DNA of 64,000 nucleotides from Halorubrum salsamenti (lineage in GTDB: Archaea; Halobacteriota; Halobacteria; Halobacteriales; Haloferacaceae), in assembly GCF_007671685.1 (NCBI RefSeq), contig NZ_VCNL01000001.1:868001-932000 (forward strand), written 5' to 3'. This document shows, piece after piece, positions 3,358 to 59,219 of the stretch (positions are counted from its first letter, which is position 1; the number at the start of each line of letters is the position of its first letter). The translations under genes and the position numbers were made by a program. The notes under the pieces were generated by a model. That model saw only the letters and a program-made list of their open reading frames with translations, ran no database searches and was not told the origin of the DNA.

Positions 3358-3623
3358 GGCTACGGTAGCGTGGAGTCGGCCGGGCGTAATCGTTGCGGTC
3401 GGGGCGGTACGTGTTCGGGAGGATCCCCCGTGCGTCACACGATCTGAATGTCTGGGTCCGTTGAAATCCCCGTCTTCGGATGTATTTTGTGTTAAACGGC
3501 TGGTCGTTGAACGATGGTCTCTTGATCGATATTGGGAGTTGATGTTGCAGTCTGGTGGTGGCGAGACGACGTTTAAACAGCCGCGAGCGAGTTCGCCGAT
3601 CACTTATAAATGAGCGCGGCGCG

Positions 3624-3857
3624 GCGGTGGCGCGCGTCTCCGAGCGCCCAGAGGGCGCGAGTAGCGAGGGACCGAAGGTCCCTCTGACAGCCGGCGGCGA
3701 AGCCGCCGACGAGAGCGCCGTGCGAGGGAGTCGGCCGACCGGAGCGAAGCGACGGGGGCCGACGAGGCTGGGGAAGCGTGAGGCTGCGGTGCGGTTGCGG
3801 GCGGGTGGGACTCGAAGGGGCGCCCGCCTCACGGCTGGGGCTTTGGGGTGTTCACCG
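3624..3857 (+). repeat. Hairpin-rich repeat element, copy A
   Basis: The first of five related elements; it fills the 669-bp gap between the helicase start and the GNAT stop. In order: GCGCGCGTCTC opening with an inner GCGCCC-aga-GGGCGC triloop hairpin; perfect triloop hairpins GAGGGACC-gaa-GGTCCCTC (3666-3684) and CGGCGGC-gaa-GCCGCCG (3692-3708); a GTCGGCC/GGCCGAC stem; GACGAGGCTGGGG; a CGTGAGGC (3777-3784)/GCCTCACG (3826-3833) closing stem; and the 3' block GGCTGGGGCTTTGG...TTCACC. The long loop of copies D and E is missing. The motif tcacttataaat occurs on both sides (3600-3611 and 3900-3911). No coding capacity was seen. The rest of the gap (3358-3623, 3858-4026) holds only AT-rich promoter-like motifs. 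Confidence 0.85.
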
Positions 3858-4026
3858 CGTTGTCGACGGCGATAAATCGCCGCCAGAAACACCGCTCGTT
3901 CACTTATAAATAACCGATGCTCACAGTGGTTCACGTACTCCCGCAATCGCTCACCGCTGTCTCTGTGTCGACCGGGACCGGAACGACCGCGTCTCTTTCT
4001 GGGTGTTTCGACGGAACCGACCGCCC

Positions 4027-26861: not shown

Positions 26862-27344
26862 ATGGACGAGCGCGACGTGCGGCTGTTGAAGGCGATCTCG
26901 GACCTCGGCACCGGGAGCCCCGAGCGGCTCCACGAAGAGACCGACATTCCGGTGTCGACGATCCACTACCGGCTGAACAACCTCCGGGAGGACGGCGTGA
27001 TCGAGAACGACCTGTACGACCTCGACCACGAGGCGCTCGGGCTCGGCGTCACGGTGATCGTCGAGGTGCTCGCGAGCTACGAGGGGCCCTACGAGGAGTT
27101 CGCTGAGGAACTGCTCGCCGTGGAGGGCGTGACGGAGGCGTTCTTCACGATGGGCGAGACCGACTTCGTCGTCCTCGCGCGACTGTCGTCGTCGGACACC
27201 GTCGAGCGCCTCATCAGCGACTTCGAGGCGATCCCGGAGGTCGAGCGCACGAACTCGACGTTCACGATCGCCACCCTGCGCGACGAGCCGCGCGCGCCGG
27301 CGACGTACGACCTCGACACGCTGATCGAGGAGCTGACGGACTGA
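26862..27344 (+). CDS. Lrp/AsnC family transcriptional regulator
   Basis: A 160-residue protein. An N-terminal winged-helix domain (MDERDVRLLKAISDLGTGSPERLHEE, PVSTIHYRLNNLREDGVI) is followed by an AsnC/RAM ligand-sensing domain (LGVTVIVEVLASYEGPYEEFAEEL, VEGVTEAFFTMGETDFVVLAR). It probably senses an amino acid or related metabolite and controls the divergent EamA carrier. The 183-base AT-rich region between them contains a 13-bp palindrome and TATA motifs on both strands. No second regulator-like gene is nearby. Confidence 0.88.
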   Translation: MDERDVRLLKAISDLGTGSPERLHEETDIPVSTIHYRLNNLREDGVIENDLYDLDHEALGLGVTVIVEVLASYEGPYEEFAEELLAVEGVTEAFFTMGETDFVVLARLSSSDTVERLISDFEAIPEVERTNSTFTIATLRDEPRAPATYDLDTLIEELTD

Positions 27345-27420: not shown

Positions 27421-27786
27421 GCGGTGGCGCGTGCCTCCGAGCGCCCCCAGGGCGCGAGGAGCACGCGCGAGGGAGTCAGTCGCCGGAGCAACGCGGAGGC
27501 GACTGACGAGGCTGGGGAGGTGTGAGGCTGTGCGGTGCGGGCGGGTGGGACTCAGAGGGGCAGTCGCGAGGGCGAAGCACGCTGCAGCAAGCACCGCAGC
27601 GAGCAACGCGAGCGAGGAGCGTGGTTCGAGAGAGCTTTGCTCTCTCGTCATCGCCAGAAATCGGTGATTTCTGGCTAGCAGTCAGAACGCTTTGCGTTCT
27701 GACGACATCACGAAAGGCGCGCAGCGCCTTTCGAACGACAGCAAAGCGCGCGAGTCGTCGCGACTGGGGCTTTGGAGGTCTTCACC
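27421..27786 (+). repeat. Hairpin-rich repeat element, copy B (largest, with a four-hairpin array)
   Basis: This fills the convergent gap between the Lrp and gatE stops. It starts with GCGCGTGC/GCACGCGC (27427-27434 and 27461-27468) around GCGCCC-cca-GGGCGC. The GTCAGTCGCC/GGCGACTGAC stem, GACGAGGCTGGGG and GTGGGACTCAGAGGGGCAG follow, then the outer stem CAGTCGCGA/TCGCGACTG (27561-27569 and 27758-27766). Inside this loop lie four consecutive perfect triloop hairpins: 27627-27647 (ttt), 27653-27675 (ggt), 27681-27703 (ttt) and 27711-27733 (gca). It ends in GCTTTGGAGGTCTTCACC. Open frames across it are not believable proteins. Confidence 0.88.
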
Positions 27787-27832: not shown

Positions 27833-29716
27833 CTACGACCGCTTGCCGATCTCCTCGCGGAGCACGTCGGAGACGACCTCGCCGTCGGCCTTCCCGCGGA
27901 GCGCGCCCATCGCCTCACCCATCAGGCCGGAGAAGGCGCCCATCCCCTCCTCCTCGATCTGATCGGCGTTGCGCTCGACGACCTCCACCACGGCCTCTCG
28001 GACCTCGTCCTCGCTCACGCCCGAGAGCCCGGCCTCCTCGACCGCCTCGGCCGCCGACAGCTCGGGGTTCTCGGCGAGCGTCGTCAACACTTCCGGAACG
28101 CCCTCCTTCGCGAGGTCGCCGTCCTCGACGAGGTCGAACAGGTCGAGGAACTGCTCGTCGGTCAGGTTCTCGACGGGCGCCCCCTCCCGGCGGATCTCCG
28201 TCGTCGTCGACTCCAGCGTCGACGCGGCGAAGGTGGGGTCGACGCCGCGGTCGACCGCGGTCTCGAACAGGGGGAACCGCTGGCCGAACGCGACCTGCTC
28301 GGCGAGGCCGGCGTCGAGCCCGAACTCGTCGGCGTACCGCTCGGCCTTCTCGTCGAGGAGTTCCGGCCGGTCCACGTCGGAGGGGTCCGGCTCGACCGGC
28401 GGCACGTCCGTCTCGGGGTACATCCGCGCCGCGCCCGGCAGGGGCCGGAGGTACCGCGTCGTCCCGTCGTCGTTCGCGCCGCGGGTCTCCTCGGGGACGC
28501 CCTCGATCGCGGTCTCCGCACGCTCGGCGGCCGCCTCGATCGCGAGGTCGGCGGTCTCCGGGTCGGCCGCGACGATGGCGACCGCGTCGCCCTCGCCGGC
28601 GCCGACCGCGTCGCGGAGGGCGTCGACCTCCGCCTCGGTCACGCCGTACGCCGGCAGCTCGTCGGTGTGGAAGATGCCGCCCGCGCCGTGGCGCTTGGCG
28701 TGGTCGGACAGCTCGGTGCCGAGCCGGCGGTCCGGCTGGATCTCGCGGCCGACGAGCCCGTCGAAGCCGAACAGGGGGACCGCGGTGACCTTCCCGCCCG
28801 CGTCGAGCGCGCCGCGGATGACGCCCGACTCGGTGTCGGCGAAGGTGTCGGTCACGTCAGAGACCTCGCCGACGCTCGCGTCGCGCTCGCGGAGTTCGTC
28901 GCGGATTTCGAGCAGTTCGGCCTGCCGTCCGACCTCGCCGCGGACGATGTCCTCGATGCCCTGCAGGTCCTGTACCCCTTTCACCTCGACGCGGGCGCCG
29001 TCGGCGATGGAGACGTTCACGTCCTGCCGGATCGTGCCGAGCCCGCGCTTGACCGCGCCGGTCGACCGGAGCAGCATCCCGATGCGCGCAGCGGCCTCGC
29101 GAGCGCCCTCGGGGCTCCGAATGTCCGGACCCGTCCCGATCTCGACGAGGGGGACGCCGAGCCGGTCGAGCGAGTAGACGACGCCCTCCTCGGTCTCCTC
29201 GACGCGCTTTGCCGACTCCTCTTCGAGCATGAGGTCCGCGATCGAGACGCGTCCCTCGCTCGTCTCGATCTCGCCCGCCTGTCCGAGCAGGATCGAACGC
29301 TGGAACCCGGAGGTGTTCGAGCCGTCGATGACGAGCTTGCGCATGACGTGCGCCTGATCGACCACGGAGATGTCGAGGAGGTCGGCGATCTGGAGCGCCA
29401 CGGAGAGGGCCTCGCTATCGACGCGGCGCGGCGGCTCGTCGTCCTCCTCGACGAGGCAGGTGGTGTCGTACGCGAGATAGGTGAACTCGCGGTCGACGCG
29501 GCTCTCCTCCATCGCGGCGTCGTCGAGTTCGCCGAGTTCGCTCTTCGTCGGATGGAGGCGGCGGTTGATCTCGCGGTCGGACTCCTCGGGGTCGCGTTCG
29601 ACGGTCGGGGAGTCGCAGAACAGCTTCGTCGCCGTGTCGAGCTGCTGGTGGATCTCCAGCCCGGCGACGAGCCCCAGCTCCTCGTAATCGTACTCGGGGG
29701 TCGCGTCCGTACTCAT
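27833..29716 (-). CDS. gatE: Glutamyl-tRNA(Gln) amidotransferase subunit E
   Basis: This 627-residue archaeal GatE acts with GatD to convert Glu-tRNA(Gln) to Gln-tRNA(Gln). The family opening LGLVAGLEIHQQLDTATKLFC is present, as are the transamidase core (VDGSNTSGFQRSILLGQAGEI; RLGVPLVEIGTGPDIRSPEGA) and the AspRS-like insertion domain (about residues 270-410). The C-terminal YqeY-like tRNA-binding tail ends at GALRGKADGEVVSDVLREEI. A TATA-like cttttagt lies about 27 bases upstream of the ATG, so it is probably leaderless. The gene is flanked on both sides by copies of the hairpin repeat, in the same orientation. Confidence 0.95.
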   Translation of the reverse strand: MSTDATPEYDYEELGLVAGLEIHQQLDTATKLFCDSPTVERDPEESDREINRRLHPTKSELGELDDAAMEESRVDREFTYLAYDTTCLVEEDDEPPRRVDSEALSVALQIADLLDISVVDQAHVMRKLVIDGSNTSGFQRSILLGQAGEIETSEGRVSIADLMLEEESAKRVEETEEGVVYSLDRLGVPLVEIGTGPDIRSPEGAREAAARIGMLLRSTGAVKRGLGTIRQDVNVSIADGARVEVKGVQDLQGIEDIVRGEVGRQAELLEIRDELRERDASVGEVSDVTDTFADTESGVIRGALDAGGKVTAVPLFGFDGLVGREIQPDRRLGTELSDHAKRHGAGGIFHTDELPAYGVTEAEVDALRDAVGAGEGDAVAIVAADPETADLAIEAAAERAETAIEGVPEETRGANDDGTTRYLRPLPGAARMYPETDVPPVEPDPSDVDRPELLDEKAERYADEFGLDAGLAEQVAFGQRFPLFETAVDRGVDPTFAASTLESTTTEIRREGAPVENLTDEQFLDLFDLVEDGDLAKEGVPEVLTTLAENPELSAAEAVEEAGLSGVSEDEVREAVVEVVERNADQIEEEGMGAFSGLMGEAMGALRGKADGEVVSDVLREEIGKRS

Positions 29717-29809
29717 TACGCCTCACTCCGGCGGCGCGGGACTAAAAGGGTGGCAGTTCGCGCGGGCGATGCGGATCGAGACCACTGATGTTGTTTATAA
29801 ATGACGGGA

Positions 29810-29961
29810 CGGTGGCGCGTGCCTGTGAGCGTCCCCGTGGGACGCGAGCAGCACGCGCGAGGGAGTCGCGAGCAGAGAGGGACCTCCGGTCCCTCATGCA
29901 GCCGGCGCGCAGCGCCGGCGACGAAGCGAGCGACAAGGCTGGGGCTTTGGAGGTGTTCACC
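29810..29961 (+). repeat. Hairpin-rich repeat element, copy C (internally deleted)
   Basis: The shortest full copy, upstream of gatE. GCGCGTGC/GCACGCGC (29815-29822 and 29851-29858) encloses GCGTCCC-cgt-GGGACGC, a compensatory variant of the GCGCCC/GGGCGC hairpin. Two perfect triloop hairpins follow: GAGGGACC-tcc-GGTCCCTC (29877-29895) and GCCGGCGC-gca-GCGCCGGC (29901-29919). AAGGCTGGGG then joins directly to CTTTGGAGGTGTTCACC: everything that other copies hold between the two GGCTGGGG repeats is absent. TATA-like motifs (tttataaat, tttataag) lie on each side. Confidence 0.85.
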
Positions 29962-29991
29962 GGCGATCGATAGTCACTATTTATAAGCGAG

Positions 29992-30010
29992 CGGCTGGGG
30001 CTTTGGAAGT
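29992..30010 (+). repeat. Remnant of the hairpin repeat (3' block only)
   Basis: CGGCTGGGGCTTTGGAAGT, the 3' block of the element, stands alone 30 bases after copy C and directly behind its own tttataag box. It appears to be a solo end left by recombination or partial duplication. The rest of the gap up to the tRNA (30011-30134) shows nothing recognisable. Confidence 0.65.
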
Positions 30011-41189: not shown

Positions 41190-41205
41190 CGTATTTAAAC
41201 CAGTA

Positions 41206-41463
41206 CGGTGGCGCGTGCCGCCGAGCGCCCAGCGGGCGCGAGGGGCACGCGCGAGGGAGTCAGTCGCCGGAGCGAAGCGGAGGCGACTGACGAGGCTGGG
41301 GAGGTGTGAGGTGCTGTGCGGTCGCGGTCGGGTGAGACTCAAAGGGGCAGCCGCGAGGCGGGCACAGGCGACGTAAGCACCGCAGGGAGTGAGCGGAGCG
41401 AACGACTGAGGAGCGCAACGAGCGTGTGCCCGCCTCGCGGCTGGGGCTTTGGAGGTGGTCACC
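41206..41463 (+). repeat. Hairpin-rich repeat element, copy D
   Basis: This fills the convergent gap between the DUF790 stop and the PUA-like gene stop. It has GCGCGTGC/GCACGCGC (41211-41218 and 41245-41252) around GCGCCC-agc-GGGCGC, then GTCAGTCGCC/GGCGACTGAC, GACGAGGCTGGGGAGGTGTG and GACTCAAAGGGGCAGC. A perfect 19-bp closing stem (41348-41366 and 41425-41443, from CAGCCGCGAG to CTCGCGGCTG) encloses an about 58-base loop. It ends with GGCTGGGGCTTTGGAGGT and TCACC. Flanking AT motifs are tatttaaac (5') and tttataaat (3'). Confidence 0.88.
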
Positions 41464-58613: not shown

Positions 58614-58792
58614 GTGCCCTCCGATCGTTGACAACGGATCTACCGCATTTCCGGCGGAATCCGTCGACTCGCCGTGGTCAGTACGGCAACAGCGCCGAGT
58701 GATAGCGGGAGTGGGTATTGCAGTTCGGTGGTATCGATTTAGTTATTTAAATAGACCTGAGCCACGGCATCGATCGCTTATAAACGAGGGTT

Positions 58793-59059
58793 GCGGTTGG
58801 CGCGCGCCTGCGAGCGGCCGCCCCCGGCGGCCGCGAGTCAGCGCGTGCGAGGGACGCGGTGAGCGCTCGGAGAGCGCGAACCGCGAGGCTGGGGAGGCGT
58901 GAGGTGCGGTTGCGGTGCTGTACGGGTGGGATTCAAAGGGGCAGCCGGCGAGGCGGGCGCAGGTGACGTAAGCACTGCAGGGAGCGAGCAGCACGAGCGA
59001 CCGAAGCGCGCAGCGAGCGTGCGCCCGCCTCGCCGGCTGGGGCTTTGGAAGTCTTCACC
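58793..59059 (+). repeat. Hairpin-rich repeat element, copy E
   Basis: This fills most of the 606-bp convergent gap between the small MutS-linked gene and the GH15 gene. GCGCGCGC/GCGCGTGC encloses GCGGCCGCC-ccc-GGCGGCCGC. CGCGGT/ACCGCG then encloses GCGCTC-gga-GAGCGC. GAGGCTGGGGAGGCGTG and GATTCAAAGGGGCAGC follow. A perfect 20-bp closing stem (58942-58961 and 59020-59039) surrounds a 58-base loop similar to copy D's. It ends GGCTGGGGCTTTGGAAGTCTTCACC. CGATCSCTTATAAAC (S = G or C) lies on both sides (58771-58785 and 59070-59084). The rest of the gap (58614-58770 and 59085-59219) contains only scattered TATA-like motifs. Confidence 0.88.
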
Positions 59060-59219
59060 GCAAAGCCGTCGATCCCTTATAAACAGCCGACAGCAACACC
59101 ACAATCCGACTTATAAACGGCTACTCTCACGACGTACTACACTCACTCCCGCTATCGGTCACGAAGCAGCCATCAGCGGCCGATCGGTTCCACAGAACCG
59201 ATTTAAAAACCCCGCTCAG

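Follow-up and report, generated by a model that had tools for sequence, protein, structure and literature searches.

Four triloop hairpins near a haloarchaeal gatE gene form two nested foldback pairs within a dispersed RNA-like element

Introduction

Four perfect triloop hairpins with stems of 9–10 bp stand side by side at 27627–27733 of the window, by which we mean the whole 64-kb stretch of Halorubrum DNA that was analysed, and the locus raises the question of what produces such an array and which part of it comes and goes. The original prediction held that the four stems are all unrelated, that only their shape repeats, and that whole hairpins seem to be gained and lost as though through some hairpin-making process, for which template switching and the insertion of small foldback units were named. 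On re-checking in the sequence, positions and loops of the four hairpins were as claimed (Table 1), and the triloop hairpins given for two other copies of the surrounding element, copies A and C, were present as well, at 3666–3684 (loop gaa), 29877–29895 (tcc) and 29901–29919 (gca). Perfect triloop hairpins with stems of at least 9 bp occur six times in the window, compared to a mean of 1.45 and at most 4 across 60 dinucleotide shuffles. Of the six, four lie inside 110 nt, while none of the 60 shuffles placed more than two in such a stretch.

Table 1. Positions of the hairpins, the units formed by them and the host-element copies in the window
Feature	Position	Strand	Description
Host element, copy B	27421..27775	+	head GCGGTGGCGCGTGCC to tail CTGGGGCTTTGG
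P1 helix	27427..27468	+	GCGCGTGC / GCACGCGC, inner GCGCCC / GGGCGC; covaries in alignment A1
P2 hairpin	27475..27507	+	GTCAGTCGCC / GGCGACTGAC
Conserved linker	27508..27527	+	GAGGCTGGGGAGGTGTGAGG
P3 domain	27553..27775	+	CAGAG-GGG-CAGTCGCGA ... TCGCGACTG-GGG-CTTTG; array in apical loop
Alpha unit	27622..27738	+	TGGTTCGA ... TCGAACGA; hairpins 1 and 4 plus linkers, split by beta; between host G and CA
Hairpin 1 (alpha)	27627..27647	+	9 bp, CGAGAGAGC-ttt-GCTCTCTCG
Beta unit	27653..27706 (right end approximate)	+	hairpins 2 and 3, nested in alpha linker TCATC^A; CATC found on either side
Hairpin 2 (first of nested beta)	27653..27675	+	10 bp, GCCAGAAATC-ggt-GATTTCTGGC
Hairpin 3 (second of nested beta)	27681..27703	+	10 bp, GTCAGAACGC-ttt-GCGTTCTGAC
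Hairpin 4 (alpha)	27711..27733	+	10 bp, CGAAAGGCGC-gca-GCGCCTTTCG
Host-element copy, probably copy A	3620..3846	+	hairpin pair starting at 3666
Host-element copy, probably copy C	29809..30006	+	own hairpin pair 29877-29919, tail repeated
Host-element copy	41205..41452	+	without hairpin units
Host-element copy	58793..59048	+	P3 without hairpin units

Results

The stems turned out not to be unrelated. Hairpins 1 and 4 agree in their outer CGARA/TYTCG pairs, as do hairpins 2 and 3 in G(C/T)CAGAA/TTCTG(A/G)C, and this likeness was the first sign of two pairs. From filled and empty copies, the outer unit, alpha, could be delimited to ~57–60 bp with terminal inverted repeats TSGTTCGA/TCGAACSA, while the inner unit, beta, measures ~55 bp and lies inside the central linker of alpha. 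The four hairpins are two nested foldback-pair units and not four independent ones.

Both units are housed in a dispersed structured repeat of ~245 nt, the host element, of which copy B carries the array in the variable apical loop of its P3 domain. Copy B occupies the spacer of two convergent genes whose 3′ ends face it, an Lrp/AsnC-type gene (26862–27344, +) and gatE (27833–29716, −), with the GatE match above and the Lrp-type matches below curated cut-offs. P1 and P3 form palindromes near both ends of the element, whose outer boundaries are not sharply fixed; empty sites were found in syntenic stretches of six relatives, with spacers too diverged to give exact element ends or a target site. 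The tail CTGGGGCTTTGG occurs exactly 82 times in the 3.67-Mb assembly that contains the window, and with one mismatch permitted it gives 127 matches against 57 for a reversed control pattern, so that the inexact matches are partly due to chance. A BLAST search in which 12 candidates were scored per genome matched the host element in 52 of 52 Halorubrum genomes. Allowing at most two mismatches, we found the linker GAGGCTGGGGAGGTGTGAGG in 31 of 146 sampled genomes of the order; it has 93 copies in the genome of the window, 14–179 in each of nine sampled genomes of the genus (this one included) and as many as 130 in another genus. Partial matches occur in 6 of 72,556 plasmid records (Halobaculum 2, Natrinema 2, Halorubrum 1, Halomicrobium 1), and the element found no match in 50,697 phage records.

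Several further features of the host element were observed. The tail often recurs ~54–60 bp onward, mostly with a TATA-like box in between (window 29937–30006; L031, L098, L103, L106), which looks as if terminal-only copies had piled up. An imperfect inverted repeat (GGGAGT...GCAG / ...ACTCCCGC) surrounds the window copies at 3500–3990 and 58720–59135, which suggests that both belong to a larger MITE-like element. The symmetrical GGG/GGG internal loop of P3 is nearly invariant across copies (CAAAG-GGG-CAG / CTG-GGG-CTTTG; e.g. window 41205–41452), and many copies have a TTTATAA-like box ~10–20 bp before the head (L004, L011, L013, L022), possibly a promoter or an insertion-site feature, which is poor in copy B.

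Two catalogues of P3 domains (104 and 177 domains) place the hairpin pairs at few fixed sites. In the larger one, 107 domains lack a recognised unit, 88 of these being 112–124 nt long, and 55 carry alpha, which is not a frequency, since most of the latter loci were retrieved for the very reason that they carry alpha; among the copies of the genome itself selected by their tail, alpha is present in 4 and beta in 3 of 78. Beta was found in 22 of the 177 domains, in all 22 within alpha and never without it. Comparison of filled and empty loci (L129/L378, L161/L132 and others), whose backbones are similar and not identical, shows alpha exactly inserted into an otherwise unchanged site. Apparent target duplications are absent for alpha and read CATC or CA for beta, leaving no uniform transposition signature. 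In L026, L107 and L338 the apical part of P3 is wholly inverted relative to the stem, for which template switching on a larger scale and recombination between the arms are alternatives, and two of the 177 domains carry alpha inside such an inverted apical domain. In two further loci (L275 and L323, from Halorubrum coriense and another genome of the genus) the alpha-bearing segment is tandemly duplicated with N at the junction, which could be an assembly effect.

The host element itself has the marks of a structured RNA. In alignment A1, composed of 42 diverse copies without large P3 units, the helices P1 and P3 covary, with 99.1% of 1955 cells paired and two-sided changes in 26 of 47 pairs; the covariation score of 0.391, reached in 0 of 500 shuffles, compares to 0.144 after shuffling and to at most 0.077 when slid. 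At the 45 pairs predicted alike by the consensus folds of the two strands, G.T was counted 50 times and A.C 4 times, affecting 20 and 4 pairs, respectively, and the consensus fold is more stable in forward (−79.9 kcal/mol) than in reverse sense (−52.4 kcal/mol). When more P3 outer stems were included, the counts were 36 G.T versus 10 A.C, or 23 versus 9 with one column left out. The covariation, together with a tolerance for G.T that does not extend to A.C, indicates an element read as RNA from head to tail, and very probably it acts as such under selection, as far as its pattern of substitution can tell. No description of it was found in Rfam 15 or in the literature searched, and Rfam models have no match anywhere in the window.

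The hairpins of the units behave differently. Hairpin 1 is perfect in 57 of 67 copies and hairpin 4 in 53 of 56, with four stem sequences each. Over the distinct hairpins 1–4, G.T (10) is not in excess of A.C (13), the count for hairpin 1 omitting bacterial loci, and the difference from the backbone gives a Fisher p of 8e-6; the p-values for wobble are naive, as the copies are related, while the sense of the effect is consistent. Loops are GAA/TTC, GGA/TCC or AAA/TTT in 50 of 57 cases for hairpin 1 and 47 of 53 for hairpin 4, and both loop senses are borne by the same stem; likewise, the loops GGT and TTT of hairpins 2 and 3 in the window appear as ACC and AAA in L121. Perfect arms without G.T bias, combined with loops in reverse-complement pairs, are what template switching predicts. 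For such switching within inverted repeats, homogenised arms and inverted spacers, including ttc to gaa, have been reported (PMC8604942), as have the creation and maintenance of RNA hairpins (PMC8794818). The units share with the quasipalindrome mutation outlined there the perfect arms, the loop flips (including ttc<->gaa, with arms above 9 bp) and multi-base compensatory changes; that process is described for yeast coding DNA and RNA genes, while here it would act on dispersed nested units.

These data also bear on a reading that takes the hairpins for expansion arms of a functional RNA, whose perfect pairing selection on that RNA would maintain and whose number would vary because extra arms are tolerated. 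Such arms would suit an element with strongly covarying helices and a G.T excess, and in the predicted fold of copy B the hairpins indeed form separate arms that leave P1–P3 undisturbed. However, selection on RNA predicts neither both loop senses on one stem nor stems free of a G.T excess, and 107 of 177 copies have no recognised hairpin unit. We regard this reading as improbable.

Gain and loss were followed at the gatE locus, where the original prediction had proposed to compare related strains. Of 22 gatE loci from the same genus, five hold the element between both genes in the same orientation, and at the alpha site these five species' copies have 4 (the window), 2 (G009), 0, 0 and 0 hairpins, so the number does differ at the orthologous locus and identical arrays everywhere are not found. 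One hairpin of the G009 copy has a mismatch, and one of the copies counted as zero carries a different hairpin elsewhere. Inverted copies of the element lie beside gatE in 2 of the 22 loci, and the examined interval of the other 15 contains none.

On a tree of 147 P3 backbones from which alpha had been removed, the 44 rows carrying alpha do not form one clade (AU p 1.4e-56), and presence of alpha requires 37 changes compared to a mean of 38.2 after shuffling of the labels; 37 or fewer changes were enough in 74 of 200 shuffles. Since the backbone is short (~115 nt, poorly resolved) and recombination is likely, the tree displays lability and does not count events. We found no two alpha-bearing copies whose backbones are nearly identical (score >0.9) and whose alpha content differs, hence no single event was caught, and near-identical copies likewise yielded no direct replacement of stems. 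In L375 (18151–18404, −), GAGGAGCGTGGTTCG is directly joined to CCTGTGCC, possibly a deletion scar of alpha.

Units also occur outside the host element. Bacterial and archaeal genomes were scanned for GTGGTTCGA-N(9-17)-TCGTCATC, and 80 of at least 119 matching stretches were examined; among the matches listed, stems of at least 7 bp are present at 44 of 50 haloarchaeal sites and at 0 of 32 bacterial ones. The context of the 50 listed haloarchaeal sites is IS605 right-end-like in 12, P3-like in 10, inverted P3-like in 4 and other in 24. The ORF next to L271 encodes TnpB (PF01385, PF07282), and the right end at this locus equals that of the empty tnpB loci L349 and L356 from the genome of the window plus alpha, whose ends match those of alpha in P3 except for one base. 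Alpha is thus found inside palindromes of two hosts, the right-end hairpin of IS605 and the apex of P3, and to judge from these sequences it can sit in IS605 right ends. At L363 (C12:679837 of the same genome), a TnpB element has a beta-like hairpin pair within its right-end palindrome.

A further reading assigns the array to a TnpB guide RNA, for which circular omegaRNAs from haloarchaea including Hrr. lacusprofundi form the background (PMC12558985). Alpha resembles the haloarchaeal omegaRNA/sotRNA families (RF02656, RF02657) in that some TnpB elements contain it in their right-end hairpin; the 12 of 50 listed sites with IS605 right-end-like context and the adjoining TnpB at L271 and L236 point the same way. 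By contrast, tblastn located a TnpB C-terminus within 260 nt of alpha in only 2 of 48 haloarchaeal loci, most tnpB right ends of the genome itself are without alpha, and the element in the window has neither TnpB nor an Rfam match; Rfam models match none of the elements L001, L002, L003, L161 and L107 either, even at E<=1. For the window copy this reading is largely refuted and very improbable. The omegaRNA reading had initially been prompted by the context CCTCGGGGTC...GACCCCGAGG and was rejected; besides the tblastn result, the same-strand ORF search found no TnpB and that of the opposite strand one clear case. The Rfam sot2652 match at L250 (47 bits, gathering 61) lies ~1.1 kb from the alpha unit and lends no support.

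The occurrences in tnpB right ends also bear on a reading in which each unit was inserted only once into an ancestral element, all later variation being due to recombination or gene conversion, with no hairpins made at present. Within the element every type of pair, alpha and beta among them, is confined to one site, a pattern also compatible with a single old insertion that recombination has since redistributed; recombination would likewise give the near-random label changes on the tree, and many host copies per genome are available for it. Alpha in an IS605 right end and the relative of beta at L363 nevertheless make at least two captures of each likely, and recombination between copies does not by itself explain the inverted loops. 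We regard a single insertion as a real possibility that leans towards doubtful.

Discussion

Among known systems, the PATEs and SMRs of Haloquadratum behave most alike, while REP/REPIN sequences are similar in build. The short mobile repeats type A (SMR-A) of Haloquadratum walsbyi (PMC3119063) are, like alpha, small non-coding haloarchaeal units with terminal inverted repeats, and SMR-A, which lacks a clear target duplication, inserts inside PATE/IS605 palindromes much as alpha lies in palindromes. The combined array of alpha and beta (~110 bp) has about the length given there for SMR-A, whereas alpha alone, a pair of triloop hairpins of ~57–60 bp, is unlike SMR-A in that account. Identity with SMR-A (HqIRS42/43/55) was considered, and copy number speaks against it, as a Haloquadratum genome (L221) contains only 8 alpha half-units compared to the 109–128 SMR-A reported. 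PATEs are elements too short to encode a transposase, with palindromes close to their termini but no terminal inverted repeats, and these palindromes resemble those of an IS605 transposon; one is reported from Hrr. lacusprofundi (PMC10544981). The tail of the host element, compared by eye, is unlike the right ends of 20 tnpB loci of the genome itself.

REP, BIME and REPIN sequences of bacteria (PMC3116915, PMC3733652) share with the units short hairpins with 2–3 nt loops, inverted pairs and highly heterogeneous stems and loops, and they carry a GTRG-type tag beside the stem. Alpha might accordingly be an archaeal REPIN moved as single-stranded DNA by a transposase of IS200/IS605 type (Y1), since it comprises two hairpins in inverted order with tetranucleotides next to their outer sides (GTGG beside hairpin 1, GTCG beside hairpin 4), is dispersed in haloarchaea and shares its genome with one Y1 transposase. 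The second tag, however, is GTCG instead of the GTRG of the REPIN type, the Y1 gene lies ~0.9 kb from a tnpB domain on C17 and not beside alpha units, 0 of the 5 alpha matches of this genome being on C17, and no RAYT-like gene is linked to alpha. Archaeal host, nesting of pairs and residence inside a larger element and IS605 ends further separate the units from bacterial REPINs, and a word search for 'Halo' in PMC3733652, a paper on REP/REPIN, found nothing. An archaeal REPIN appears unlikely.

The explanation that we consider probable is one of insertion and loss of foldback pairs combined with upkeep by template switching, acting on nested pairs at the P3 apex of an RNA-like element. At sequence level, the comparison shows that hairpins are present or absent in pairs, that the boundaries of insertion are exact, that units nest and that the same unit ends recur in an unrelated host. 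From these we infer that a pair would rarely be inserted into an existing palindrome, that pairs would spread with the host copies and by recombination among them, and that they would be lost by deletion; in each palindrome, repeated template switching at the DNA level would copy one arm onto the other and flip the loop.

The original idea of a process that makes hairpins and inserts foldback units is largely borne out, with a nested pair within a high-copy structured element as the moving part. The number of hairpins does vary between copies, but what comes and goes is the pair and not the single hairpin. Of the processes named, foldback insertion has left its traces in the defined ends, and template switching in the perfect arms, the missing wobble bias and the inverted loops, while hairpins newly arisen on the spot were not seen at the window locus.

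Conclusions

More generally, and tentatively, haloarchaea may harbour transposase-less double-hairpin units of ~57 bp that insert only into the tips or linkers of existing palindromes, those of the units themselves among them, and so come to sit inside one another like dolls; they would colonise IS605 right ends as well as a high-copy non-coding RNA element, with template switching keeping their hairpins perfect and flipping their loops. In Halorubrum, the host element stands out as an abundant candidate RNA, and the locus separates two forces, namely selection at the RNA level, which leads to strand-biased wobble, and editing of hairpins at the DNA level, which leads to perfect arms, no bias and flipped loops. 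With about a hundred copies per genome in dozens of sequenced species, it offers a natural test bed for the origin, spread and perfection of hairpins and for the homing of small foldback units into palindromes.
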